Source of the DNA: Ilex aquifolium
Lineage: Eukaryota; Streptophyta; Magnoliopsida; Aquifoliales; Aquifoliaceae
NCBI GenBank assembly: GCA_951799425.1
Contig: OX637391.1
Coordinates: 8,566,551-8,630,550, forward strand
DNA: 64,000 nt
Direction: 5' to 3'
How positions within the stretch are numbered: position 1 is the first letter of the stretch; each line of letters starts with the position of its first letter. Below the pieces are notes generated by a model. It made no database searches and was not told where the DNA came from. It saw only the letters and a program-made list of their open reading frames with translations. The translations under genes were made by a program, and so were the position numbers. Positions 2,268 through 63,180 of the stretch are shown piece by piece.

Positions 2268-3749
2268 TAAAAAGTGTGGTCAACAAAAGCGGAATCAATA
2301 AATCCACCTTTAGATAAAAAAAAAATTTAACATTACTAAAAACACAACTGTACAAACTTCTCTCTCGCTCTTGTAAAAAATAAAAAAATGCAACATCAAG
2401 GACAACGATGGCAAAAGAAGTAGATAAAAACATGCTCAAAACCCTTTCCAAAGTCGGCCCAAAATCACAATTAAAAAAAAAATCAGCCAAGAAACTTCTT
2501 CCATCTCGTTCAAACTTAGTTTCTTCAAATGTGTATGTTCTAATATCTTCCATCTGTTTAATTTATGGTCTAATAAAACCCAAAAATTTAGAGAGAGTTA
2601 TGCAGAGAGTTGGAAAAAGAGAATTTTTGTATAAGAGAGATAGTTTCGAGGATTAAATGCGTTAAAAACACAACCATACAAACTAAAACTCCCAACTCTG
2701 TTCTCCAAACTTATCTCTATCTCTCTCTTGTAAAAAATAAAAAATGCAACAAGTAAGGACAACGATGGCAGAAGAAGTAGATCAAAAACATGCTCAAAAC
2801 CCCTTCCGAAGTCAGCCCCAAAATCACAATAAAAAAAATGAGCCTCAAAACCTCTTCCATTTGGTTCAAACTCAATTTCTTCAAATGGGTCTGTTTTCAT
2901 ATCTTCCATCTGTTTAATTTATGGTCCAATAAAACCCAAAAAATTAGAGAGTTATGGAGAGAGAGTTTTTGTAGAAGAGAGGGTTACGAGAAGTAAGTGC
3001 CTTAAAAACACAACCTTACAAACTGAAACTCCAAACTCTGTTCTTCAAACTTCTCTCTCTTGTAAAAAATAAAAAATGCAACAAGCAAGAACAACGATGG
3101 CAGAAGAAGTAGATCAAAAACATAATCAAAACTCCCGTCAAAGTCAACCCCAAAATCACAATAGAAAAAAATAAAATAAAATAAAATCAACCTCGAAACC
3201 TCTTCCATCTTGTTCAAACTCAGTTTCTTCAAATGAGTCCATTTTCATATCTTCCATCTGTTTAATTTATGGTCTAATAAAACTCTAAAAATTCCAAAAT
3301 ATTAGAGAAAGTTAGAAAGAGAGTTTTTATAGAAGAGAGACAGTTTCAAGAATTAAGTGCATTGACAACACAACCATACAAACTGAAACTCCAAACTCCG
3401 CTCCAAACTTCTCTCTCTTATTTTCAATAAAAAATGCAACAAGCAAGGACAACGACGACATAAGAAGAAGATAAAAAACATGCTCAAAAGCCCTTCCAAA
3501 GTCGGCCCCAAAATCACAATAAAAAAAAAATCAGCCTCGAAACCTCTTCCATCTGGTTCAAACTCAGTTTATTCAAATGGGTTTGTTTTCATATATTCCA
3601 TCTGTTTAATTTATGGTCTAATAAAACCCAAAAAATCCCAAAAAATTAGAGAGAGAGAGAGTTAGAAAGAGAGTTTTTGTAGAAGAGAGACAATTTCGAG
3701 AAATAAGTGTGTTGCCCCTCTAAAACGTGGTCAAAGACCACACTTTTTA
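2268..3749. repeat. Four tandem copies of a ~340-bp unit between short inverted ends
   Basis: Units start near 2337, 2664, 3004 and 3364 and end near 3710 (about 327, 340, 360 and 347 bp). Each runs from an AAAACACAACCATACAAACT-like start through a CT-rich stretch, a GGACAACGATGGCAGAAGAA-like block and a GTTTAATTTATGGTCTAATA block to a GAGAGAGTTTTTGTAGAAGA block. The array is bordered by a 14-bp inverted pair, TAAAAAGTGTGGTC at 2268-2281 and its complement at 3736-3749. The right border also contains the perfect hairpin GTGGTC-AAA-GACCAC. Small open frames inside the units are not conserved in frame between copies, so I regard the array as non-coding. Confidence 0.8.
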
Positions 3750-4966: not shown

Positions 4967-6655
4967 TATCTTTCTTACTCATCTTCGTCTTCATCTCACT
5001 GGTTTGAGAAACTTAATTAATAGACACCACACCTATTACGTGCTGTTCTTATCTGTTAATCTGTCTTTACATTAACTAATCGGCTCTGCCATTCAATTTT
5101 TGTTTTGTTTCTTAGCAAATTGGTTTTGATATTCAACTTTCTCTCTCGATTTCTGTAATTAAACGTCTTCCCACATTAATTAGTAACTTAAATGCATATT
5201 TTTAATATTTTAAAAAAAAATTCTTAATTTTATAATTTTAGTGTATGGGGGTTCAAAGAAAAAAAAACAGTTTGATGAGTAATTTTCTTTGCAATTTCAA
5301 ATAACAATGGATATATATTTGCTGATTAATCAATTTATTTTTTGTAAAGTGTAATATTTATATTTTTATTTTCACGTTTTCACTAAGATGTATGTTAATA
5401 TTCGTACTCGTAACACATTATCAAAGATGACCGTTAATTTCGTTATTCTAAACATACAGACAAGATGATTGTTAATATCTTTATTTTAAATATATAGACA
5501 AGACACCAACAAGATGACCGTTAATGTTGTTATTTTAAATTGACCAACCAGATGACCGTTAATATCGTTATTTTAAACAGAACAACAAGATGACCGTTAA
5601 TGTCGTTAATATTCTTACTCTAAACCATACCAACAAAATGGCCGTTTATATCGTTATTTCAATCATGTCAACAATATGGTTTAAGTGATCATTAATATCA
5701 TTATTCTCAAAATACCCCCAATATGACTGTTTATGTCGTTATTCCAATCATACTGACAAAATGAACGTTTATGTAATCATTTCATTTTCAAATGAGATCG
5801 CAGAACTACGTCGTTATTTATTGATAGTCGTTTATACGGTTATTTTGAGACAAGATCATTTATTTGTTATTTAAGTTAATACCATAATAATTATTCGTTC
5901 ATTTTTTGTAGTTTTTAATAAAAATATCCACTTTTGTCGTTATTACACTGGGCATAGGGACAGTGTAGTATTCTTACTCTACACATACCGACAAGATAAC
6001 CGTTAATGTCGTTATTTTAAATATACCGACAAAAATGACTGTTAATGTCGTTATTTCAATCATGTCAATATAACTGTTTATGAGATCATTAATATCGTTA
6101 TTTTCAAAATATTGACAATATGACCGTTTATGTCGTTATTCCAATCATGCGACAAGATGACCGTTTATGTAATCATTTCAGTTTTAAATAAGATTCCAGA
6201 ACCATGTCTTTATTTATTGATATTCGTTTATATGGTTATTTTGAGACAAGATCATTCATTTGTTATTTAAGTTAGTACCATAATAATTATTCGTTCATTT
6301 CTTGCAATTTTTAATAAATAATAAAAAAAAGATCCACTTATATCATTTTTATAGTTTATGTCGTTATCGAATTTATGTCATTATGTCTATGATCATTTGT
6401 AGTTTATAAATGAGATATTAATTAACACGGGTTAATAATTCATTTAATTTGCACATTTAGTAAGATCGGTTATACAGTTATTATAATTTATCGACATTAT
6501 AATCTTTATATCGTTACACATATTTTTGTATGAGATGAAATGCCTATTATGCCATTGTTGAAATTTGTCATTATTTACTTGGTGACCCAATTTAATTATG
6601 TGAGATATTCTACTCAAATGCAAACTTATTAAAATTATAATTGATTAAACCCATG
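4967..6655. repeat. AT-rich segment A with GACCGTTAATGTCGTTATT minisatellite
   Basis: From about 5400 to 6180 the motif GATGACCGTTAATGTCGTTA recurs roughly every 35-45 bp with drift (forms with GTTTATGTCGTTATT are also present). The block is itself internally duplicated: about 5640-5930 matches about 5990-6310. The whole segment, starting at ATCTTTCTTACTCATC, is present again from 8828. No protein-coding signal was seen. Confidence 0.8.
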
Positions 6656-8827: not shown

Positions 8828-9463
8828 ATCTTTCTTACTCATCCTCGTATTCTTCTCTCTGGTTTGAGAAACTTAATTAATGGACACCACACATATTAAG
8901 CATTGTCCTTATCTGTTAATCTGTCTTTACATTAACTAATCGGCTCTGCCATTCAATTTTAATTTTGTTTCTTACCAAATTGGTTTTGATATTCAACTTT
9001 CTCTCTCGATTTCTGTAATTAAACGTCTTCCCACATTAATTAGTGGGTGAAGTACACAACTTAAATGCATATTTTTATTTTTTTAAAATTTTTCTTAATT
9101 TTATAATTTTAGTGTATAGGGTCAAAAAAAAAAAAAACCAGTTTGATGAGTAATTCTTTGCAATTTGCAAATGTTGAAAGTATTGACAACAATGTTATTT
9201 CCCTTCTTTTGTTATTCTTTGTTTCTTAAATAACAATGGATATATATTTGTTGATTAATCAATTTATTTTATGTAAAGTGTAATATTTATATTGTTATTT
9301 TCAAGTTTTCACTAAGATGACCGTTAATATTCTTACTCTAAACATACCGACAAGATGACCGTTAATGTCGTTATTCTAAACATGCCTACAAAATGACTGT
9401 TTATGTCGTTATTTTCAATCATGTAGACGATATGACTGTTTATGTGATTATTAATATCGTTAT

Positions 9464-47334: not shown

Positions 47335-49090
47335 TTTTTTTTAAAATGAATATATGTCATTGCATAAATAAAAAACATGAATATTTTGAACATATTTTAC
47401 CCAATATGATACTATTGTCGCAAGAGCCCAAAAAGATTAACAAGTTCAAGTTTAAACATCACTTCCAAAAGGGCCTAACATTGAAAAAATAAGTGTTTAT
47501 CAACTAACTTGAACCTTTTGCCACGATTGATATGGAATTTTAGTTTATCTTTTTTTTTTTAATGAATATACTCAAAAAAACAAATACATATTTTGAACAT
47601 ACTTTACCTAACATCAATTCAGTAGAAGGAACTATGGGGTATGGGGTGGTGTTGGAGTGCTGGTGGTTCACGGGGTAAAGCCAAGATAGAGAATGAAGAG
47701 AGAGGAAGGGATTTGTTCAAATTGATTTTTCACTAATCTCAAATTTTAAGGGCAAAACTGGTGATTTATAAAAGTCTTAGCAATAACTCCGTATTTGAAG
47801 ACACTATATAATATTAAAAATCAAACTGATATTACAATATTTATATTTTAAATATTAATTTAGTTTTTTAATTATGCAATTTAAAATTAAAATAAAGAGA
47901 GAGGTAAGTATAAATTAATGAAATTATTTGACATTGAAAAGTTTATTGATTGAGTTGTTTGGTATTAAGTGTTGTGTAGATAATTTAATAAAAAAAAAAT
48001 TATGGGATGAATTTTGTATCATTGGATCAAAGTAGTTGAAGATTGAATCAATCTTGACCGTTGTTATACTTTTATAAATTAAAATTAAAATTTTTAACTA
48101 TAATATTAAATAGATGTAAAATATGACTGGTCAAAGGGTTGACTAAAAGTTGACCTTAAATCCAAGAGCCTGAGTGTAATTTTTTGAAATTGCAGGGGAT
48201 GAACTTTGAATATTTAGCTCTTGTTTGTACCTTGTTTTATATTTATTTCATTAACCATCGCTTTTAAGCTCGTAACTAACAGTAATACTAAAATGTTCAA
48301 TATTGCAGTCCAAGCTACCTTGATGGGACACCAGTAACGGCGTCGTTTGGTGCTAAAGGCGTTGGATGGAACATTTGGTATGTCATCCTTGTCCAAATCA
48401 AAGTTAGCCTTGGCATAACTCAAGTATTTACCTTTTGGCACTTCTTTAGAGGTTTCTTTCTGTGCTTTTCACATGGTGGGACACCTTCCTCTGCTATGCG
48501 GATCAACCTCATCATGTACATCGATAAAAAAAAACTTAATTGATATCGATTAAAGATGGGATTACACGGGTTTGATTGAACGAGATTCAAACTCGAAAAA
48601 TGATTGAATTTACTCACCGTGTGAAAGATATAACCTTAAATGCATTATAATCTTACACTTTGACCCGACCCGAGTAGTGGGGAGTTTTTGGCTGATCCAC
48701 ATCATACTCTATCCTTGTACGATGATGATACATACCAGCAAACTGTCCCAAGAAAAAGGTAAGAAATAAATACATTTATGGCATGAATCTGTATTCCACA
48801 ATCTACACGTTTCCAAATTAATGACAAACAACATAAGCTCAGCAAAAACCTGTGGGGGCCGATTAGGTTGGCTGGTTGGTAGGTAATAATTGCATTCATA
48901 TACATTAGATAAATAAACTTTCCCTTGTAAGATTGTTCGCTTACAAGTAAGAGATATCAGGTTCGATATTTTACGTACCCCGTAAGAACAAGTCACTTTT
49001 ATTTCTCAAGGAACATGTCTTTAAACTAACTCGAGTTACGGTGATTGACTCATAGTTCGAAGGAGTAGTCAGCGCAAGTCTAAACACTCT
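47335..49090. other. Intergenic DNA
   Basis: AT-rich. Minus-strand frames at about 48214-48617 (75 and 65 codons) contain a polar YAKANFDLDKDD-like stretch, but I recognise no family and see no splice structure, so no gene is called. Confidence 0.45.
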
Positions 49091-50322
49091 GAGCTCGTTT
49101 GGTTGCCGTATTAGAAATTGATGGATTAGATAAAATAATTCGGTCTAATACAATACAGAAAAACAAAAGACAAGACTAAATAGAGTATTATAATAATACG
49201 TAATTTTGTCTAGTGTTTGGTAATATACAACATAAACGTTGGATAGTAATTATTTAATCCAATCAGTTGTTTGGTTAAGGAATTATTTTATCGTATTAAT
49301 ATTAAATTAACAAAAATATCCTCAATCAGTGTTTGTTATATTGATGACAATTTGATTTTATCAGTTAGGAGGTTATAATGGTAAATATGTAAAATACAAC
49401 GTTTGAGTTGGATTATAATACCAACTCTTTTGGTGGTATTAAAATACCTCTATAATACAGGTCTAACGTATAAAAATATACGATATATATACGATTAATA
49501 TACGTTTTTAAAATTGATGATTCCTCGGAAATCAATCTCCCATGCCCGAGTTGATTAGGCTCTTCTTGAATTTTATAAGATGGGTTTCAGAGAAATTGAA
49601 GTTAAGCGATGATAGACAAGCAAATGTGAGTGGTTCACCCTAGCCAAAAGACTTGGGCTACGTCCACTGTAATGGAGGCTCTTGCTCCTGGGTTGTGTAT
49701 ATTGATTTCAACTGATTACAAAAAAATTATTGGCTCTGGGCCACAAACGATGCTCTCTATTGAGGCTGTCCTAGGGATCTTGGCGAAAATACCAGCTAGA
49801 AGACGGGGAAGAAGACCCAGGAATTCCCTCCCCTTTCCTCCTTTTATTGTCCTATTTATATGGTGTCTGCTCCTAGGGTTTTGTTGTCCCTGCTCTTCCT
49901 TTCCTTGATCTTGTGGGGACCGTTCGTCCTTTCTCTGCGAGCCACTCTGACCGCCGGCGATTCTGTGCCCACGATCGCCTGGGTTCGTTCGACACCATCC
50001 CTCTGTTTTTGCAGGGAGTAACTCTGAGAAATCAGAGCCGGTTTTCCTTGTCCTTGGAGCGCGTGGTGCAACAGGCTCCAACTTGGGCCGTGGGCTGAGG
50101 ATCGAACTTGGGCCGGTTGGGGTCATTCCCTTTTGGGCTTCGGAGTCTTTATTCAACCTTTGGGCTCGGTCGTTGTGGCAGCCTAGCCCAAAAAAACCTA
50201 TCCTCATCAAAAATTAATACAGTATCAAATTTGCTTACCAAACAAAGTATTAGACCCGATTAAATAAAAAATAGTACAATTCAATATTTAATCCCCTCAT
50301 AATACGTCTACCAAACGAGCCA
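49091..50322. mobile_element. MITE family 2, copy 2, split by a solo LTR
   Basis: Ends GCTCGTTTGGTTGCCGTATT and TAATACGTCTACCAAACGAG. Colinear with 26811-27331 over its whole length once 49515-50214 is removed. About 530 bp of MITE sequence. Confidence 0.88.
49515..50209. mobile_element. Solo LTR, 695 bp, inside the MITE
   Basis: Begins TGATGA and ends TCATCA (TG...CA). Flanked by AAAAT at 49510-49514 and 50210-50214. Removing it and one AAAAT restores the MITE sequence seen in copy 1. A 164-codon minus-strand frame inside has no family resemblance and I do not call it a gene. A diverged relative lies at about 33855-34490. Confidence 0.92.
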
Positions 50323-51186
50323 TCTGTAACTAAAAAAGAAAAAAATACATTAGACAAATAAAGAATGAAAAAACACCAATAAATTCTACTTTTTATTTCA
50401 AAAAATAATTGAGTCCTATAAAATTTGTATTAGGACAACTAAGTCCTATTCTCCCTAATTAGTTCCAAAGAAGTAATAGTGTTAATTACAAAAGTGTTAT
50501 TGTCTTGTGTCAATCAAGTTTATATCTATGCTACTCTGCTAATGAAAGTACATTAAGCAAAAATAACTTTAAATTTTTTATTTTTAGCTTTAATTGATAT
50601 TTTAATGTCCATTTTATCCTTTTATCAAATAAATACTGGAATTGATTTTCAATAAATATGTCAATTAAACATTTGAGAATTTTTATATTCCCATGGCTCA
50701 TAAATTGACCATGTTAAGCCATGACTATTAAGATTATTTAATTTTGGATAAAAATATTATGTCAAAATGCTTCAACCATCATAATTGTACTATGAGAAGT
50801 AGTTGAAATTAAAGCTAAAAAAATGCAGCATTCATTGGATGAGTGGGTCCTATCAATTTTTTTAGTGGGCCCACTCATCCCACATTCATCAAAGGGATGA
50901 TATGTATTTGAATTTTAACTTTTGAGTTTCATTTGAGTTATGTAACATTTTCTTAAAAAAAAAAAAAACAGCAATAGTTTCAAAATCACCAATAATACTT
51001 ATAAATTCAACAACAAAAAAGATTGACTATCTTGCCTTGAAATTATTTTTAAAGAAAGACAGAACTACTTGTTAATCCTCCCCAAATCTCAAACATCCAC
51101 TGTTTGCTGTGAGGAAAAAAATCTCCACCCTTTGAGTGTCCTTTTTGGGGTTATTGGATTGATACAAGAAATTGGTATTTTAGTAA
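50323..51186. other. Intergenic / left part of a possible fold-back element
   Basis: From 50367 (GAAAAAACACCAATAAATTC) about 110 bp are an inverted relative of 58385-58495. The rest has no gene. Confidence 0.45.
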
Positions 51187-51676
51187 CTAGTTGATACAAA
51201 CGTGCGTTGCACATTAAAAATTTGATTTTGAATTTAATTTTTTTTTATCGATGTTACGGCTATAAAAATAATATTTTGCTATTTTAACCCATATATTGAT
51301 AACTTACGTGTGTAGTAGAGGTATATATTTAATTATCATAACTTAAAATAATTAGCACGAATAAATAGTGATGCACAGACAAAAATACTTCATATTTGAA
51401 CGGGTCCAGACCGCTTGAATTTGACTAAGGGGAGGACATAAAAACTTTAGTTGGTTTACCATTAAATAGCATTATCATAAGGAAAATGCCATAACCAGCA
51501 AAAATAAAAAGAAGAAGAAGAAGAAGGAAAATGCCATTTTTATCAAAATTGAGGACCTAATTTATTATAACCATTGAATTGAAGGTGAACTTCATTTAAC
51601 ATTAGAACTCACAATTAATCCAATACTTGTATTGAATTAGATCCCTGATTAGGTTCCCAAATTAAGTGTCTATAGT

Positions 51677-52452
51677 TAGGAGTGTCAAACGTGTTGGGTT
51701 AAACGGTTACGTGTCGGGTTAAACGGGTGACAGGTGAAAAATATGTAAACCCGTGCACGACACGTTTAATAAACGGGTGAAAAATCTCAACACGAACACG
51801 ACTCGTTTAATAAACGGATAACACGACACGACTCGTTTAACCCGTTTAATTTTAAAAAAATTATAGCAACAAATTTTAATACTCCACTTTTTTTTATTGC
51901 CAATTATACTTACCTCAAAAAAAAAGAATTTTTAACCAAATCTCATAAAAATCAGACTTGAAGGTTTAAAAAAAATGAAAGAGGACATTGTCTTTTATAA
52001 GCAACTCAACCCTCCCCATCTCCCCTCATTTTTCAATGTGGGACAAAAATAAAAGGCATTAGTTTGTCTTTTATAGGCAACTCAACCCTCCATATCTCCC
52101 CTCATTTTCTAATGTGGGACAAAAACAAAAGACATTGGTTTGTCTTTGAAGTGCTCTTCATCTTCCCTTTTTTGTCTTTGAACTACTATTTTACTTTTTT
52201 TTTTGTATTGATTTCTTTACTTCTTTTTTTCTTGCTAATTTTTTAAAATAATTATTAATTTATTATTATATTAATTTTATTTAAACGGGTAAACGTGTGA
52301 TAAACGGTTTGACAGGTCTCACCCGAACACGACTCGTTTATTAAACGTGTTTGGCGTGTCAACCCGTTTATCACCCAAACCCATTAAGATCTCACCCAAA
52401 CCTGTTTAATTCGTGTCGGTTAATCATGTCGTGTCGGATTTTGACAGCCCTA
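51677..52452. mobile_element. hAT-type element (776 bp) beside the MULE
   Basis: Ends TAGGAGTGTCAAACG and TTTTGACAGCCCTA. Flanks TCTATAGT (51669-51676) and TCTATAGC (52453-52460) agree at 7 of 8. Both arms iterate AACGGGT and ACACGAC motifs. A short internal duplication (GTCTTTTATA(A/G)GCAACTCAAC) lies near 51990 and 52068. Non-coding. Confidence 0.85.
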
Positions 52453-52462
52453 TCTATAGCAT

Positions 52463-52588
52463 GGGTCCGGCTCCTCTGCATTTAGGCGCTAACCGCAAAC
52501 TCTGCGGTTTAATGGAACGGCGTCGTTTCGGCTACCTTTGCAATTTTTTTTTTTAATTCCCCATTACCCAAAACGACGTCGTTTTGGT
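52463..52588 (+). repeat. Left terminal inverted repeat of the MULE
   Basis: Contains three dyads in a row: AACCGCA-aactc-TGCGGTT, the AACGGCG(T)CGTT core, and the perfect 20-bp palindrome CCAAAACGACGTCGTTTTGG at 52568-52587. Confidence 0.9.
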
Positions 52589-52803
52589 CCAGCCCTTAAA
52601 CCCGATCTGCACTCCTTCTTCTTCCTTTCTTCGTTAGACTTCAACAGCCTTTGGGAGAGAGTTCCCTTTCCCAAGTCGTTCCTTCTTCGTAAGGAGGTCT
52701 AAACAGACACCAAAATAGACACAGCCCCAGATCAAATACTTCTTTTATTTCTTGGTAAAAAAGCCTCAAAAAATTTCCCGAGAAAGTGACACCACCTCTG
52801 AAG

Positions 52804-53270
52804 ATGGCTAGCAGAAAGCTGGTCCGTGACTTGCTTCTCTCCAAGCGTCCCGTTTATAGTCAGATGTTGAGACCTCCTCCATTGGTCTGTCCCTTGATTT
52901 TGTTGTTCTTTTTTTTTTTTCTATACCTTTGAAGACTTTATACCTTTGGAGGTATCTTTGATCTTTTTTTTTTATTGTTGACTCATTGGTTTTTGTGATT
53001 CTTTTGGGTAGGTTTCAACTTCATGTACAAGAATGAGATTGTTTCCAGCAAATGGGTATGTGGGTAGTCGTCAATTTACTGTTACTCGTATTTTTGGATA
53101 TTATAGCATTGTATGGTAATTCCATTTTGCTAATTCCCTTAACCTGCTGTTTTTGCTTTATCAATTTGTGCAGCAATTCATTCACTGGTATCATGTTTGT
53201 GACAAGAGTTTTTGGGAGGACACTGTTTGTTGCAGCCAAATCAGAAACTTCTGCTGCTAAAACTACATAA
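52804..53270 (+). CDS. Small 73-residue protein with mitochondrial-type presequence, inside the MULE
   Basis: Three exons, 52804-52884, 53012-53055 and 53174-53270, with GT/AG introns, give a continuous 73-codon frame. The N-terminus MASRKLVRDLLLSKRPVYSQ is basic, amphipathic and free of acidic residues except one Asp, as in mitochondrial presequences. I think it resembles the N-terminus of plant TIM44-type import proteins up to the MRLFPANG segment, but none of the TIM44 body follows; the last exon (GIMFVTRVFGRTLFVAAKSE) is unrelated as far as I can tell. It may be a captured 5' gene fragment with a newly recruited last exon, or a genuine small mitochondrial protein. Its place just inside the left TIR supports capture. 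Expression is unproven. Confidence 0.5.
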
Positions 53271-54750
53271 AAAAACTACATTACAGATGGATTTAGGTTT
53301 GACTTTTTTGTTGGGCTGTGAGCAATGGTGCAGGAACTGTGGTGGGGTTCATCTGTTTAGCCCTGTCAGCAGCTGGAATGGGATAGGTTATGTATGACCT
53401 TGGGCTGTTTATGTTTTTTCTGGAATATGGTAGAGAGAAAAGGGGATTGGGTGATGCAAAGATGGAATGTATTTGGTGCAGAGAGGTTGTTGCAGTCTTT
53501 GGCAGATAATTGCAAATTTTTGAAAGATTGAGTAAACTCTTGATTGCATTCTATGGCAGATAGTATGTTGATGTTGTTGTGCTGAGGGTGTTGGTCTTGT
53601 GATTCTCCACTGAAGTGAACTGTTATTTTGTTTGCACTGGACTGTATGTTTCTGCACTGAGCTGAAGCATGAGTACTATGCAAGAGGGTTCTTGGCCTTT
53701 TCTGTTGCAGTAGCTTTCTGCTATTCTGGCAAAATTGTTGCTGTGTGCTGATTTGTTTTCAAAGGAGCAGGAGCTTTCAGTAGATGGAATAGGACTAGTT
53801 CATGGGTTTTAATACTGTTGAAGGATTAAAACCAACTCTTTGTAATTAGAATTTTTTCAATTCCTTTGATTCTTGTAATTCAATTGCTTTGATGGAATAA
53901 GGTTGTGACTTGGAATTTCTGGAAAGTATTATTTGTTTTTGGGATTTGCTTGAAATCTGTATATTCTTTTGGGATTTGCTTGAAATGAATGTGAATGTGG
54001 AAAGTATTACAACTCATTGAATCAACACCATAATAGAAATAACAGTAATGCCAAAAATTACAAGAAGCAAAAAACAGTCACTGTTAAACAAAAACAGTCA
54101 CTGTTTTAACAAGCAAAACAGTACATTGTACAAAAATCAAAAAACAGCTGAACAGTCCAGCTGAAATAACTGGACAATGCAGATAAAAAACTTCCAGCTG
54201 AAGAGAACCAGCTACACATCACAGGTCAAAAGCATCTCATATAACCTCCAAGCAACCCCTCCACTACCATCCTTCAAAGTCCAATAGGAAATATTAACAG
54301 CTCAGCTGCAAACTAGTCAGCATCAGACCAGGAACTCATCCAACTCAGAAGCTTAGCAGAAATCAACTAATCCAGGAGCATCAATCAAAAGCTGGGAAAA
54401 ATATGATATTCATCAGTATATTATTGTGACTTGGAAGATCAAAAGCTACAAAATTTCTCAGTATATTGTTGTGACTTGGAAGATCATATTCATCAAAAAA
54501 GATCACATTCATTATAAATACAAGAAGCATCCTTACAATACAAAATGATCCAAATAAGCATCCTCCGAACATCATTACAAGTTGAATCCCCCATTCATGA
54601 AAAATGATTCAGCATCATTTAAAGAATGCACATATGTTGAATCAGTCGGAGTACCCTACATTAATGAGAAGGAGTCAGACAAATAAATTTGATATATATG
54701 TGAAACAAGGGATATTAACTATAAGGTAACATACCATAACACTCTGTACA
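53271..54750. other. MULE interior between the two gene bodies
   Basis: 53271-53930 looks like 3' untranslated sequence of the small gene. 53990-54700 is AT-rich with repeated AACAGTCACTGTT and AAGATCATATTCATCA-type words. No further gene. Confidence 0.45.
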
Positions 54751-56117
54751 CTATTTGAAGCTTGAGAAGACATCGAATGACCACATGTTGATGTACAAGG
54801 GTGACTCAAACCATGTAACTGGAATACAAAAAAATTTACAATTATGTTTATAAAAATACGAAGTGAATAAAAATATAAAGTAAATAAAAATATGAAGTGA
54901 ATTAAAAAAATCTACAATATGTGATGGTTGGGAAGCTCCTTTTTTTCTCTTTGTTGCTTTCTCATGCCAAGATTTTAGTCGACCCCAACCCTTGTAACCA
55001 CCTTCTTTTCTTTTTAAACCTTTAACTTGGAGAAGTTTTGGGTCAACATTTTCTATTCCACTTGGGTCAACATTTTCAAGGATTGGATCATCGCCACCAT
55101 CACCAAATGTTTCAAAGCATTTTGGCAAAGGTGCCAGGTACATAACCCATGGTATGTCTCTGGCATAACAATAGAAATAGCCTTAGCAATCGCTTGATCT
55201 TGGTCCGTGAAGATGGTAATAGGATATTTCCTAGACATAGCTTGTAGGAATGTCTCAAATAACCACTGAAATGATGCTGTCGTTTCATCATACAATAATG
55301 CAGCTCCAAATAAGACTGTCTCCCTGAAATGATTGAAGCCAGTAAAACATGCAAAGGGCCGATACTCCTTGTTCGTTCTGAAAGTAGTGTCGAATGAGAC
55401 AACATCTCCAAAGTTGCCATAGTCAACAATCATCACTGGATCGGCCCAAAAAATATTAGTAATATGCTCCTCCGCATCCAATTGCACTCCATAATAGAAT
55501 GATGGATTTTTAGCTGCTTCCGCTTGAAAATACTTCAACAAACTACCCGCCTCACCATACATCAAGTCTCGTTGTCTCCTTTCACGGAGGTAATTCTTTT
55601 GGTCTCGCCGAGTAAAACCAAGACTTTCCTTTCCTCCAGACTGAGTACTTAAAAGTTCATAGGAAGCCTTAAGTGACAATCCACAATCCGCTGCCATATC
55701 AATATTAATGCCTTGTGCTTCGGTAACCTTCCGTTGAGATGACATCATATGCATACATTCAGCAAGGTGCAAAGGTTGGTTGTGGTTGTCCTCCCACTTC
55801 GTCACAACAAATTTACCAATATCTTTGTTAAGAGATATGCACATATGAGCTTCGCAATTTGTTCGTGTCTCTGCTCGAGGCTTCTTTGTTTGGCTGTCTC
55901 TTTTATCACGACCCCTTTGACCTTGTTTACAACAAACATATTTTCTGTAAATGACAATGCCATCTTTCAAACTTTTATTCTGAGAGTCTTTTCTCACGCT
56001 AAATCCCACAGACCCTCCATAACTATTGTAAAACGCATAAGCATCTTCCTCCGCATCAAATTGCATACCAATATGAGGTATATTCTCTTTCGCATTAACT
56101 CCCAAATCATCCATCAT
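54751..56117 (-). pseudogene. FAR1/FHY3-type (MULE transposase-derived) gene, internally deleted
   Basis: The long frame 56117-55053 (354 codons) has a FAR1 DNA-binding domain (about 16-118: IGMQFDAEEDAYAFYNSY, YRKYVCCKQG, TNCEAHM, NHNQPLH). Next come a linker (DQKNYLRERRQRDL) and the start of a MULE transposase domain (FYYGVQLDAEEHITNIFWAD, D243 in SFDTTFRTN, D305 in FTDQDQAI, LCTWHLCQNALKHL). After residue 338 the frame runs into 16 unrelated codons. The adjacent frame resumes with DPKLLQVKGLKRKEGG and a basic tail typical of the C-terminal end of such proteins. The rest of the catalytic domain, including the expected acidic residue, and the SWIM zinc finger (200+ residues) are missing. A deletion plus frameshift near 55090-55105 explains this. 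A possible 5' intron ends at 56123. Confidence 0.82.
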
Positions 56118-57564
56118 AATATCCTACAATAAGAAATTTAATTGAATAAGACTGTTTGTTGTTAATGAAACACATACTATATGTAGAAACAACAATGAAC
56201 TATTATACAAGAATCTGGTGTAGACTCGAAACAAGTATACCTGCTATTCTAACTGAAGTTTCTTTATCTTTTCAGCCTCAAGCCTCCGTAAGCTTCTGGA
56301 ACTTAGCTTATCACCAGAAGATTCTTCATGTACACAGCTCAAGATTTGATGCCTTGGTTATTTCTGCAACTGCCTAAAAAAAGAACATAATTATCAACAA
56401 GGTAAACATTTCTACATGCAGATGATACACCAACTATTGTGAAACCATCCATAACTAATAGAAATTTCCCACAAATGATAATATAGTTTTTTTTTTTTTT
56501 TGGTGTTTTTCTGCTTGTTGAGATTTCTGATATTAATGCTCAAGTAGTTAACAAAAAAAGAAAAAGAAAAACAGTATTTGGTTTATCTGATGCATTTTGT
56601 AATGTCGGTAGACACTAGGAAGGTGATATCTTGCTTAAAGTAAAGCATCCAATAAAGATTCTAATTCTATGCTATCAGCTAAAAGAAAAAGTGAAGTTGT
56701 GGAGGCAACCTCATCCCAATATTTTGGGTAATCTTTCTTGAAAACCAAAGCAGGGCATAATACAACCCATAAAATACATAAGTATAATATTTAACTCTGG
56801 TAAATGGTTGTCCACCCACCTAAAATTATGAGAAGCGACATTAGCATCCCACATAATATGATCAAAACGGAGCTCATTTTATCAGCTGATGAATAAAATA
56901 TGGACATTTTCTATGGATAAGATATCATACAACAAGCAATATTATAACATTACCATAACATATTAACAGGGCTGGCAAACTAAATATTCAAATTGCTGGA
57001 ATGAGTTTTTTTCATTAAACAAAATGATGCAACAACTGAATAAGATTATTTGAAGAATGGAATAATGGAAGCAAAAGTTGTGTGTAACACTCAGAAAGTA
57101 GAACTACTAGCCAAATGCATACCCACGCCACTTCCTCTCTTCATCATTTGAGACAGAATCAACTGGGATCTCAGGATGAATTTTTTGGAACAATTTATCA
57201 ACTATATCTGCATACATTAAACACCAGATGTAACAAGTCAATAACAAAACAAAACTAAACAACAAAGTCGGGTCATTCTTTCCACTCATACAGACTTTTC
57301 ACAAAATACTCAAAAAAAAAAAAGCTTCCTGTATCAAGAACCTGAGGTTAAATTATCATTTTAAGATAGGCATTCAACAGAAGAAAGAGGCGTGGGAAAT
57401 TCCAAGAGAGCAGAACCTGTGGGAGAACCGACAGAAAGATTTCATGTACACAGCTCGACTGAGTTGAGGCAGAAGAAGGCGGGAGAAGCAGGGAGAAGAA
57501 GAAAGATTTCATGTACACAGGCTGGAGGAGAAGAAAGCGGGGGAAACTGGTCTGGATTCATAAG
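56118..57564 (-). other. Upstream part of the MULE with exon-like fragments
   Basis: On the minus strand, about 56380-56250 has open stretches (VHEESSGDKLSSRSLRRLEA). After a TGTATGCAG acceptor at about 57220, the segment down to 57107 reads DIVDKLFQKIHPEIPVDSVS and on. I recognise neither. They could be exons of the FAR1-type transcript or captured host exons. A GA-rich repeated block (AGAAAGATTTCATGTACACA) occurs twice at 57434-57520. Confidence 0.4.
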
Positions 57565-57690
57565 TCCCAAAACGACGTCGTTTTGGGAAGGGGATTAAAA
57601 AAAAAAAAATTACACAGGCTGCCGAAACGGCGCCGTTCTATTTAACCGCAGAGTTTGCGGTTAGTGACTAAATGCAGAGGAGCCGGACCC
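57565..57690 (-). repeat. Right terminal inverted repeat of the MULE
   Basis: Carries the palindrome core AAAACGACGTCGTTTT (perfect out to 24 bp, 57565-57588), the 12-bp palindrome AACGGCGCCGTT and the AACCGCA/TGCGGTT dyad, matching the left repeat. Confidence 0.9.
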
Positions 57691-57699
57691 CTATAGCAT

Positions 57700-59162
57700 T
57701 GCTCTTATAATAAACAATAATGTCAAAATATATTTTTTATTTTACTTCGTGTTGACAAAAACAATCCATTTCAAAAAAATTAAGAACACTGACCCCAGCT
57801 TAACGACTCTTACCAAACTCCACCATCAATATCTTATCTTCTTCCAACAACTCAACCTTCAATGCTTTGTGGAATATCTCAATAGGGTGCATCTTTAGGT
57901 GTTCGTTGGTTCTTCATGGGCTTTGCAAGAGAAATCAATCGAGAGGTTTGGCCGCATTCGAGACAATGAGCCTAATATCGGCATTTTAACGGAGAAGAAG
58001 TGGAGAAGTGTATGAGGTGAAGGTCTTTTACGGGAGACCTATGACTTTCCTGCAAAGAAATAACTCTTAAATGAGAAGATTATTAAATAATCACAAACAA
58101 TTGCAGTTATTTTTTAGGGAAGCTGAGAAGTCTGTTAAACGGAAGACCATTAAAAAACCACAAACTACAATTATATCTTGGAAGAAGAAAAGATGATACA
58201 TGAAAAAGAGGCCAATTAAATTCCCGAGCGGTTACATCTTGACTTGTTCAACTGACTGGGATATAATGGACCATAAAAAAATTGTTAATGTTAAAATAAG
58301 TAATCAAAATTTTTTCTGAATAGCTGCCTTTTAATATTAGTATAGATTAACACCAAAAGGATAAAAAAGGAATATAATGCAAATTAGGACTTCTTTTGAA
58401 ACAATTAAGAAAAGTAAGATTTAATTGTTCTAATACAAACTTGATAGAATTTAATTTTTTTAAAGTGAAAAAGTAGGACTTATTGGTGTTTTTCCTGATA
58501 AAAAAGTGCCTAGGTAAATAAAAGCTACGGAATGGGAGAAATCAACCAAGACCTTTTAACCAGTAATGATAAAAATGGAACTACCAAGTAAAAAAGGGCA
58601 AGATTCAAATTCCATCACCCTTGCTTAACAATCAAAATTACATGAAAATACTCTAGAGAGAGAGAGAGAGAGTTCATCCTAAGCAATAGAGACATTACAA
58701 GCTGAAACTCTTTTTATTTATGACATGATTTCCACTTGCATTGCAAAATTAAGAATAATGTTATGAAATGACATGATTTCCATGTGGGTAATTGATTCTT
58801 TTACAACATACTTCGGTGTAAGAGAGAACACTGATTCACAAAGCTTGAATTCTTTCCCGCTTTGCTTTGCTGAATACACTCAGCTTTGGAGTAATCAGAA
58901 TGAAAATGATATCCAGTTAGTTCTCAGTGGAGATGCCATTGGCTTTTCCCAAACCAAATGTCTTCTTACAAATTACAAGTAATTGCTCTCAATTGAATGT
59001 GTCTTTTTGTCTTGCAACCTAAAATATGCATTAAACTCCAATCTATGGCAGCGATGAGGGGTGTTCTCTTACTGCCAAAGCTGGACATCATACAAACAAA
59101 GGGCCACACACATTATCATATTATTTAGCTAGCTACTGGTTTAGAGAGAGAGAGAGATTTAA
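57700..59162. other. Intergenic DNA to the right of the MULE
   Basis: Includes the right remnant of the Helitron-like and fold-back elements up to 58495. The rest (to 59162) is AT-rich with a (GA)n at about 58657-58670 and no recognised gene. Confidence 0.5.
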
Positions 59163-59584
59163 AGCAATGCCCTTCTTAATCTTCATATTCAGATTCTTCT
59201 TTTGCTTCTCCTGTTGTTGCTGCTGCTGCTTCTTTTTTATCATCATCTTCATCTTCTTCTTTCTCTTTATCATCATCATCTTCTTGTGAAATCACCGTTG
59301 TTGCTTCCTTGACAAGGATTATTGTGCTATACAGAAATGAGAAGGAATGTTCTGATTTTAGGAAAAGATTTACAGTGAAAATAGGTGCACGCTATAAAAT
59401 AATCTGGACAGTAGTATGCATAATTATTATATACATTTCTCGAAGGAAAAAGTTAAAAAAAGAGAATGAAAGTTGTATCAATTAAAAATTCTTTATGTTT
59501 GTGATTTGATTTTAGATGTGAATACAAATATATTTATTGTTGACTATTTTTTTATTATTTCGTGCTTTCAGGCACTGCCAATAA

Positions 59585-59588
59585 CTAG
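59585..59588 (+). mobile_element. Helitron-like 3' terminus
   Basis: The ~90 bp before CTAG here match the end of the element at 42497-43139, including the GTGCTTTCAGGCAC hairpin. The following base is A rather than T and no 5' end was located. Confidence 0.45.
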
Positions 59589-59988
59589 ATTTTATATTAG
59601 GCCCACCCAAAACAGGCAAACACACACAAACACATACACATAGACACACACACATACAAGTGCATACACATAGGGACACACACAGAAAAACCCACCCACC
59701 CACCCACAAAATTAGAAACCGTAATTAGCACAAAAAAAAAAAAAATTTAGATCTATGTATGGATATCTGTATATATCTGTGTATATATATGTATATATAT
59801 ACAACTCAATGTTCGAAGAGAGATCTGACCTTGGGGTGCTTTGTTCGAAGGGAGAAATTGAAAGAGAAAAAGGTCGTGTGGAGGCAGAGAGAACGCATAT
59901 ATTGAGGCAGAGAAAGAAGAGAGATTCGCAGGGAGAGAGAGGAGAAGAGAGAGGAGAGAGGAGAGAGTTGCAGAGAAAGAGACAGGAG

Positions 59989-60579
59989 TAGGCCTGGCAA
60001 TTCTAGACACGACTCGTGAAACCGACACGAACCCGACACGGATTTAGCGGGTTTTGGTGTAGTCTTAACGGGTTCGGGTGATTAACGGGTTAACTCGGTA
60101 GACCCGTAAAATAAATGAACCGGTTTCGTGTTTAATCCATAAACTCGTTTTAACCCGTTTAACCCGTTAACAGTGGTATTATAATTTTTTTTAAAAAAAA
60201 TTAGGTCTCTCAACCTCTACCTCATCTCACACCTCTTATCTCTTAAACTCATTCAAATTTAGTAGTCATTTAATATTTATTTTTTGTCTTTATTTTTTTG
60301 CTTAGCCATGCTTTATTGTTATAATAAACATGTCAAACATGTGTAATATGTAGCAAGTTGATGATTTTTCGTGTGGACTCGAAATACTCTAGCCTATTCT
60401 CTTATTTAGCGGGTGACACACGTGTTGTATCGGGTAACCCGTCTAATAAACGATTCGTGTATGAGTGTGATAGTTGAACTCGTTTATATAAACGAATGGG
60501 GTATGGATGAATGATTTTTTGACACAAACCCGTTCCACCCGACACGAAACCGTTCCACTCGACACGATTGCCAGGCCTA
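59989..60579. mobile_element. hAT-type MITE, 591 bp, perfect 8-bp TSD
   Basis: Ends TAGGCCTGGCAATTC and GATTGCCAGGCCTA. Flanked by GACAGGAG at 59981-59988 and 60580-60587. Both arms iterate CGACACG, AACCCGTT and ACGGGTT motifs. Non-coding. Confidence 0.93.
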
Positions 60580-61016
60580 GACAGGAGTAATGGAGTATTA
60601 GTGAGGCGGTGAGAAGGATAGATTGAGGAGGAAGAGAAGAGGGCGTAAATAGTTTCAACAAAAAACTCTCCATTTTGCTGCTAATAGGGTTTGATGGGCA
60701 GACCTCATTAAAGTCCCCAACACAGGCGCGCACTTGTATTTGTTTTTTATTGTTTTTAAAAACATATTTTTTTGTTTGCAGTTTGAGTTTTAGATCTTGT
60801 TTTCAAAATAAGTTAGCAAAAAAATAAAACGAAAATATTCACCGAACTAATTTTTTTTATTATTTAAAAAAAAAAATAAAAAGACTCTGTTACCAATCAC
60901 ACCCTAAATTATTCTCCCACACAATTTTTGGAATTCAAAAAAATTTTCAAACGCTCAAAAATTTCAAATTTTGAAATTTTGCCAATCAACCCTAATCTCA
61001 GCTTTTGAGCTCTTTG

Positions 61017-61447
61017 GGCTTGTTTGGTATGTTTTTTGGGAGGGGTTTGGATTGGATTGTCCAAACCCGGGTTTGACCCAAAGATGAGATTCAAAGATAG
61101 GATTCAACATTCAATGCTATCTATACCCATGTTTGGTATGCGCAGGGATATATAATTATTATGATAATATATTTGTACATAAATGACTATTTTGCCCCTT
61201 AACTAATTTGTATATATGAGGTATATATGATATATAAGGGTATAAATGTTATTTGCATGTTAAACCCCCAAACCAACATATGAAACCCACCCCCCCTTGG
61301 GTTTCATGAAACCCAAGTATGAGGGTTTCATGACCGGGCCGGATTTGAAATCCTATCCATACTTCACACATACCAAACATGGATTTAAGGGGGTTTACTC
61401 CCCCAACCCATGTTCTCAAACCCCCCCAAACCCTCATACCAAACAAG
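61017..61447. mobile_element. MITE with GGCTTGTTTGGTATG ends (431 bp)
   Basis: Ends GGCTTGTTTGGTATG and CATACCAAACAAG. A 3-bp TTG flank occurs on both sides (61014-61016, 61448-61450). Copy 2 of the segmental duplication reads straight through (GAGCTCTTTGTGTCTT near 63540), the empty site. The interior has several CATGAAACCC/GGGTTTCATG inverted words. Confidence 0.88.
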
Positions 61448-62308
61448 TTGTGTCTTATCACTCCTTTCGTTCCCTTTTTTTCCAGTCCGATCTTCCCTCG
61501 TTCTCTCTCATACACCTAACACAGTCTTAAGAGTAACTCTAAAGCAATGCCCTTCTTAATCTTCATATTCAGATTCTTCTTTTGCTTCTCCTGTTGTTGC
61601 TGCTGCTGCTTATTTTTTATCATCATCTTCATCTTCTTCTTTCTCTTTATCATCATCATCTTCTTCATCTTCTTGTGAAATCACCGTTGTTGCTTCCTTG
61701 ACAAGGATTATTGTGCTATACAGAAATGAGAAGGAATGTTCTGATTTTAGGAAAAGATTTACAGTGAAAATAGGTGCACGCTATAAAATAATGTGGACAG
61801 TAGTATGCATAATTATTATCTCCATTTCTTGAAGGAAAAAATTAAAAAAACAGAATGAAAGTTGTATCGATTAGAAATTTTTTATGTTTGTGATTTGATT
61901 TTAGACGTAAATATAAATATAAATATATTTATTATTGATCATTTTTTGTACTACTCCGTGCACTGCCAATAACTAGATTTTATATTAGGCCCACTCAAAA
62001 CAGGCAAACACACAGACACATACACATAGACACACAAGCGCATACATAGGGACACACACAGAAAAACCCACCCACCCACAAAATTAGAAACCCTACTAAT
62101 TAGCACAAACAAACAAAAAAATTTAGATCTATGTATGTATATCTGTATATATATGTTTGAGTTTTAGATCTTGTTTTCAAAATAAGTTAGCAAAAAAATA
62201 AAACCAAAATATTCACCGAACTAATTTTTTTTATTATTTAAAAAAAATAAATAAAATAAAAACACTTTGTTACCAATCACACCCTAAATTATTCTCCCAC
62301 ACAATTTT

Positions 62309-63102
62309 GGGTCTGGCTCGTCTGCGGTTGGGAGCTTACTGCATGTCATGCGGTTTAATAAAACGCCGCCGTTTGGTCCCCTTACCAAAACGACGTCGTT
62401 TTGGTCCTTTAAATCAGCATCAAACCCTCCCTTTTCTTTCTTTTTCCCGCTTCTTCTTCGTCGGGTCTGGTTCTCCACCTCTCTGTTAAAATTGCTCAAT
62501 CACTCGCTGCACAATTGAATGGGAGCATATTACCAAGAAAGCACCCATAATCAATTTCCATGAGCACAATTGAATGGGAGCAGCAACCATGTTTTAGAAA
62601 TGTAGTCAACAAATGGATCCAAGAAAGGAGGATACCCTTGACTTTTCATCAAACCCAAAAGATTCAAAGCTTCATTTAAACCCCCCTGAACCAGAAGCTT
62701 GGTCTGAAATAATTTATATGTAGTATCAAAGGTTTTAACTCTTTCTCATTGACCATATCAGAAAGAAGCTTGCAAAGGATGCAAAGGATTCAAAGCTATG
62801 CAGTATGCAAACGATTGCTCTGTTCTTACAAAGGATTCAAAGCTTCAAAGCTCTTTTTTGTCCAGTGGCAGGAGCTTTTTTGTCCCCGGAGGTAGGAGGA
62901 GAGAGAGAGAGAGACGAGCGCCTGAGTCTGACGAAGCAGAAGGGAGGAGAAGGGTTTCAGATGTGGGTTTTTGCCAGACCAAAACGACGTCATTTTGGTA
63001 AGGTTCAATAAAAAAAAAAATTACAAAAACCAAGTGAAACGCCGCCGTTCCACTTAACCGCATGACATGCGGTAAGCTCCCAACCGCAGAGGAGCCAGAC
63101 CC
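62309..63102. mobile_element. Non-autonomous MULE (794 bp), relative of 52463-57690
   Basis: Ends GGGTCTGGCTCGTCTGCGGT and its inverted partner (CTCCCAACCGCAGAGGAGCC, then AGACCC). The TIRs are about 100-125 bp. The 9-bp TSD CACAATTTT is perfect (62300-62308 and 63103-63111). The TIRs share with the large element the AACGCCGCCGTT-type box and the palindrome CCAAAACGACGTCGTTTTGG (62385-62404; one mismatch in the right copy, 62978-62999). The interior (62406-62977) repeats CACAATTGAATGGGAGCA and GGATTCAAAGCTT words and is non-coding. Copy 1 of the duplication has the empty site at 60920-60940. Confidence 0.93.
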
Positions 63103-63180
63103 CACAATTTTTGGAATTCAAATTTTTTTTTCAAACGCTCAAAAATTTCAAATTTTGAAATTTTGCCAATCAACCCTAAT

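Follow-up and report, generated by a model that had tools for sequence, protein, structure and literature searches.

Among the described systems relevant to the locus considered here are Mutator-like elements (MULEs) which bear a FAR1 domain, a grapevine Mutator family holding intronic as well as exonic gene pieces, a grapevine CACTA family with a pentatricopeptide repeat (PPR) piece, and short genes made up of a FAR1 and a MULE domain (PMC2528002, PMC6446971, PMC13317346 and PMC8599713). The analysis was carried out on a 64,000-nt stretch of the Ilex aquifolium genome (contig OX637391.1, positions 8,566,551 to 8,630,550; G+C 34%), referred to below as the window, and concerns an element at 52463-57690. 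This main element is, with high probability, a Mutator-like transposon of the terminal inverted repeat (TIR) type in which the element's own FAR1-type transposase has been shortened and host-gene-like fragments lie near both ends. As such it is an ordinary gene-capturing MULE, of a type widespread in plant genomes, and nothing in it falls outside the described kinds. The FAR1-type gene, the MULE structure and the plant-like character of the gene fragments are in keeping with a plant source.

For TIR-type Mutator-like elements a target site duplication (TSD) of about 9 bp is a defining feature, and here two identical 9-bp copies of CTATAGCAT directly adjoin the ends of the repeats. A 9-bp duplication is likewise common in the MULE table of PMC6446971. 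Compared by blastn, the 125 bp of the left repeat and the right repeat (57690-57567) are 88.1% identical over 126 alignment columns, while without gaps the match spans 110 nt at 85%; the perfect duplication and the TIRs of about 126 bp described in an earlier first-pass annotation, made by a model from the letters alone, are both confirmed by these figures. The terminal 23-mer, with up to three mismatches allowed, is matched twice in the window and never in 100 shuffles. Such a TSD, together with paired inverted repeats, is what typically marks the insertion of a Mutator-like element. The repeats are also common to more than one locus: the idea that no other locus carries them, against which the first-pass annotation was to be judged, is contradicted by another element in the window, which lies at a distance of 4.6 kb, possesses a 9-bp duplication of its own and has ends about 75% alike to those of the first. 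Of the eight ACGNCGNCGT sites that occur in the window, the main element has four within its TIRs and the sister element three within its own, the last one lying elsewhere (48337), and those within the repeats are candidate binding sites for the transposase. The left end of the main element and the sister element's right end are alike over 178 bp, which extends beyond the inverted repeat, so that the roughly 50 bases next to the left repeat on its inner side probably belong to the transposon and not to a captured gene, such as the 5' untranslated region of TIM44.

The minus strand of the main element carries a 356-aa stop-to-stop frame (56123-55053) in which a FAR1 domain (PF03101, E 1.1e-22, profile positions 2-88 of 90) is followed by a MULE domain (PF10551, E 5.7e-27) matched over positions 1-99 of a profile of 99; it is through this complete match that a MULE-type DDE transposase domain is recognized. 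A related ZSWIM1-3 RNaseH-like match (E 8.1e-07) was found in the same frame, and NCBIfam returned a weak match to an IS256 transposase (E 0.0055; score 15.7 bits, cut-off 150); the weak Pfam matches ZSWIM3_N and NIF fell below their cut-offs and were set aside. Only 21 residues past the end of PF10551 the frame meets a stop codon. The third and last catalytic residue of MULE transposases would be expected beyond the point at which this frame ends, and so would the SWIM finger. When the main element was scanned in six frames, with stops masked and at E 10, no SWIM or CCHC match appeared, the only matches listed being the FAR1, MULE and ZSWIM-type ones of the 356-aa frame; the combination of FAR1, MULE and C-terminal SWIM or CCHC in one open frame, which marks an autonomous FAR1-type MULE, is not found. 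Immediately after the break, in another frame, follows a lysine-rich stretch (54937-55104) to which family searches gave no match and which may represent the former C-terminal part of the transposase, brought next to the break when an internal segment was deleted. The proposal of a MULE with a degraded transposase is thus sustained by the TSD, the TIRs, the two domains and the early stop. The same annotation spoke of a FAR1 domain joined to part of a MULE domain: the two are indeed joined on one strand, but the MULE domain is complete and it is what should follow it that is gone.

Near the right end, also on the minus strand, lies a captured fragment resembling prostaglandin E synthase 2 (PGES2), an addition which the first-pass annotation does not contain. 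Its two exons, A and B, joined in phase across a GT..AG intron, read IVDKLFQKIHPEI...DEERKWRGWVDNHL, and the joined product scored 50 against a stretch of macaque PGES2 (EERKWRGWVDNHLPEL over EEMKWRQWADDWLVHL), as did none of 5000 shuffles. The join had been picked by eye, and hence all GT-AG joins were scored, with introns of 70-500 nt, on both strands of the element, in three phases and with no fewer than 4 open residues to either side of the join; among the 25,037 joins so scored, that of A and B was the sole one to reach 50 or more, the next best scoring 42. The second reference was a provisional sequence of a plant homologue: against it the join scored 120 (0 of 2000 shuffles), and this provisional sequence itself matches the PGES2 structure PDB 1z9h at E 1.4e-67. 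Similarity runs over two exons joined in phase, although with the macaque protein it covers 16 residues only. The likeness fades past the HL of exon B, and a capture border, or else subsequent decay, probably lies just after these two residues. Weak Pfam matches to DUF3169 and MalF_N_TM in the frame that holds exon A were below cut-offs and were set aside. An upstream start joined to exon A on the minus strand was likewise discarded, as the donors in all five of its formal combinations were unconvincing on visual inspection.

At the opposite end, on the plus strand, a spliced frame of 73 codons had been noted and interpreted as the captured first exons of a nuclear gene for a mitochondrial protein, provided with a new 3' exon. 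The three exons do splice as described, across two GT..AG introns, 127 and 118 nt long, to give 222 nt of coding sequence including the stop, and the N-terminus is basic and of the import-signal type; unspliced, exon 2 would reach a stop after 35 codons. The length of the frame was rejected as support for the mini-gene. In 60 dinucleotide shuffles of 52588-53500, searched for ATG-to-stop frames interrupted by no more than two GT-AG introns, each 70-300 nt long, all 60 yielded one that was 73 codons or longer, as did 31 of the 60 when stricter splice sites were demanded, so that length at this level is no evidence; nor is the 73-codon frame the longest in the real sequence, where the longest frames have 122 codons under the loose and 100 codons under the stricter rule.

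The content of the frame was compared with a provisional N-terminal sequence of Arabidopsis TIM44-2. Against this reference the 73 aa scored 86 (0 of 2000 shuffles, highest 44) and exon 1 alone 78 (0 of 2000), while exon 3 scored 17 against the provisional TIM44 stretch, a value attained by 1243 of 2000 shuffles. Read through past its proposed donor, exon 2 scored 41, marginally above the shuffles (0 of 2000, highest 40), a hint that TIM44 homology may continue inside "intron 2". The comparison with this provisional sequence suggests that a 5' piece of a TIM44-like gene was probably captured here, and to this extent the earlier interpretation, with exon 1 and the 15 codons of exon 2 aligning, is probably right. 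The new 3' exon did not survive in the same way: exon 3 is at the level of shuffles, and because the TIM44 resemblance may run past the second donor a novel third exon is unproven. Searches with the 73 aa gave no Pfam and no NCBIfam family at E 1, and in the PDB two receptor-kinase chains only (E 2.6 and 2.7), which is chance level. A hydrophobic frame, WAVSNGAGTVVGFICLALSAAGMG, lies right after exon 3 on the plus strand (53312-53386), with an open frame resuming past its stop; neither it nor exon 3 (searched within the 73 aa) gave a Pfam match or a meaningful PDB match. Literature searches found no papers matching the TIM44- or PGES2-type peptides or the letters of the TIRs, and none which joined a Pack-MULE with a mitochondrial targeting presequence.

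The sister element was located by blastn of the main element against the window, which gave related ends at 62309-62407 and 62925-63102, 74-75% alike over the longer matches, and an exact 9-bp duplication, CACAATTTT, surrounds it. No transposase match was obtained from it in six frames, its single weak Pfam match (PF16463, Phage_TTP_13; E 0.086) being below the cut-off and set aside. It holds a 39-aa piece of a PPR gene, for which 14 PDB sequences were returned at E 10; 11 of these were designed or PPR-type sequences, matched at best with E 2.4e-14 by the summing of weak repeats, and two were PelA (E 1.1). Only mS81/rPPR8 (PDB 9gyt_g; E 2.7e-9, residues 2-38) among the 14 had a stretch which passed on its own, and the 22-aa end of the piece matches mS81/rPPR8 alone (E 2.3e-4). 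With a host PPR piece and no transposase sequence in any of the six frames, the sister element has the composition of a strict Pack-MULE.

Features of the main and sister elements, with positions in the window
Feature	Position	Strand	Remarks
Main element, left TSD, CTATAGCAT	52454-52462	.	
Main element, left TIR	52463-52587	+	palindrome CCAAAACGACGTCGTTTTGG at inner end; related motif ACGGCGTCGT begins at 52517
Subterminal stretch, also present at right end of sister element	52588-52640	+	element positions 1-178 vs 63102-62925, 74.6% over 185 columns
Exon 1, MASRKLVRDLLLSK..., TIM44-like N-terminus	52804-52884	+	27 codons; compared with provisional sequence
Exon 2 as proposed	53012-53055	+	15 codons; TIM44-like reading may run past 53055 to about 53095
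Proposed exon 3	53174-53270	+	no similarity to provisional TIM44 stretch
Lysine-rich stretch	54937-55104	-	other frame, right after break; no family match
Shortened FAR1-type MULE transposase gene	55053-56123	-	FAR1 domain, complete PF10551, 21 residues, stop
Captured exon B, PGES2-like, WVDNHL	56801-56819	-	in phase with exon A across GT-AG intron
Captured exon A, PGES2-like, IVDKLFQKIHPEIPVDSVSNDEERKWRG	57123-57207	-	
Main element, right TIR	57567-57690	-	ends on its inner side with the same palindrome CCAAAACGACGTCGTTTTGG; ACGGCGCCGT, a related motif, at 57627
Main element, right TSD, CTATAGCAT	57691-57699	.	
Sister element, left TSD, CACAATTTT	62300-62308	.	
Sister element	62309-63102	.	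794 bp; related TIRs, no transposase match
Captured PPR-gene piece	62587-62703	-	closest solved natural chain mS81/rPPR8, mitochondrial ribosome
Sister element, right TSD, CACAATTTT	63103-63111	.	

The identification of a shortened, gene-capturing MULE should nevertheless be considered with caution on several counts, all of which tell against it to some degree. The TIR and end comparisons cover the 64-kb window only, which limits what they can say on copy number, on an intact relative and on the donor genes. A SWIM finger that has decayed could have eluded the six-frame scan. For TIM44 the sole reference is the provisional sequence. In the case of PGES2, beyond the shortness of the macaque alignment, the unspliced frame of exon A scored 34, which is chance level as the best of 2881 frames of the window scored 35, and the 38-aa fragment has no PDB, Pfam or NCBIfam match. 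Finally, Pfam gave no PPR match in the piece carried by the sister element.

Other explanations of the locus can be envisaged. The minus-strand gene might be a working short FAR1 gene of the FM type, which lacks SWIM, residing in its transposon and acting as a DNA-binding regulator or as a repressor of related elements. Such genes are numerous in plants, at 5,634 according to PMC8599713, and the 356-aa frame is open across both the FAR1 and the MULE domain; however, paired TIRs and a perfect TSD still enclose the gene, and its frame breaks off beside the basic stretch that is open in a different frame, an arrangement that resembles decay through a deletion, so that we regard a working gene as unlikely. 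One could go further and treat the inverted repeats as unrelated leftovers with host genes between them, in keeping with the mere two loci in the window that have such repeats. This is scarcely credible, the least so of all the explanations discussed here, given exact 9-bp duplications at the precise repeat ends of both elements and a terminal 23-mer that recurs in the window and not in its shuffles.

The plus-strand frame invites a different question, that of whether it is a working chimeric gene whose TIM44-type import signal and new C-terminus yield a small mitochondrial protein. GT-AG introns and the basic N-terminus are present as this would require, and some Pack-MULE captures are expressed as chimeric transcripts (PMC13317346), but the frame has a length expected by chance and no family match, and the TIM44-like reading may, marginally, continue into the proposed intron 2; we therefore hold such a gene to be quite improbable, more so than a working FAR1 gene. 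Most ambitious is the view that the family repeatedly captures genes for mitochondrial proteins (TIM44-, PGES2- and mS81/rPPR8-like, across two adjacent elements) and that the TIM44 presequence starts a new, expressed small mitochondrial protein, which is more improbable again and to which we give very little credence.

Under the preferred explanation, that of a gene-capturing MULE with a shortened transposase, the ancestor would have been a self-moving FAR1-type MULE which lost the rest of its transposase, presumably including the final catalytic residue as well as the SWIM finger. Host DNA would have been copied into it, a TIM44-like 5' piece at the left and a PGES2-like two-exon piece at the right, and the main element would now move only with transposase supplied by a complete relative elsewhere and binding the repeats. 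The frames that were captured are most likely pieces of pseudogenes without function, whether transcribed or silent. The sequence shows, with the reservations given above, that the element inserted, that its transposase is cut short and that it carries pieces resembling host genes; the ancestor, the succession of these events and the reliance on a relative are what we infer. The locus provides an example of exon shuffling by MULEs, with two related elements within 11 kb and two, probably three, host-gene fragments between them. It also illustrates a risk for annotation, as the FAR1-like and 73-aa frames could be called host genes although they are the cargo of a transposon.

A number of further features were recorded. 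Within the main element the motif CTGTGTACATGAA occurs three times on the minus strand (57508-57520, 57441-57453 and 56325-56337), twice as GAGCTGTGTACATGAA, a pattern which suggests local duplication; a minus-strand frame at about 56340-56246 with a basic, helix-like stretch gave no family match, and in the minus-strand frame 53366-53758 the matches STAT_bind (E 0.0049), Glyco_trans_4_2 and SDH5_plant were below cut-offs and set aside. The left flank (52270-52453) is rich in motifs of the CGTGTCG and AAACGGGT types and ends in GACAGCCCTA; it is reminiscent of the end of a hAT-like element, which the MULE would presumably adjoin directly. Six-frame searches of the flanks 47500-52453 and 57691-62308 gave no Pfam match at E 0.1, and for the 165-codon open frame at 49716-50213 on the minus strand neither Pfam nor NCBIfam had a match at E 1. 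Elsewhere in the window there is a tandem array at 2363-3636, with 3.7 copies of a 358-bp unit, and a pair of arrays at 5424-5774 and 9314-9452, separated by about 3.5 kb, consist of similar 38-bp units, AAGATGACCGTTAATATC.... No Rfam match at the gathering threshold and no tRNA match was found in the whole window.

Set against known systems, the main element comes close to those TIR MULEs with a FAR1 domain that make up the Hop and Jittery groups, to which we liken it by its features. According to PMC6446971 these likewise have an N-terminal FAR1 domain, and their TIRs are similar in length (39-292 bp for the dicot/monocot sub-group of Jittery), whereas the C-terminal SWIM/CCHC listed for that group was not found here, and the TSD of 9 bp differs from the "Not indicated/8 bp" of the corresponding row. 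Short stretches resemble prostaglandin E synthase 2-like genes and, probably, the mitochondrial import gene TIM44, as fragments only, neither gene being complete. The FAR1-related FM genes also combine FAR1 and MULE domains without SWIM (PMC8599713), but here the combination lies inside a flanked transposon. Transduplicating MULEs and Pack-MULEs of rice, Arabidopsis, Lotus, melon and grapevine similarly carry host fragments, introns included (PMC2528002 and PMC13317346). The main element, because it keeps part of its transposase in the form of the FAR1 and MULE domains, is not a strict Pack-MULE, whilst its sister element fits that description.

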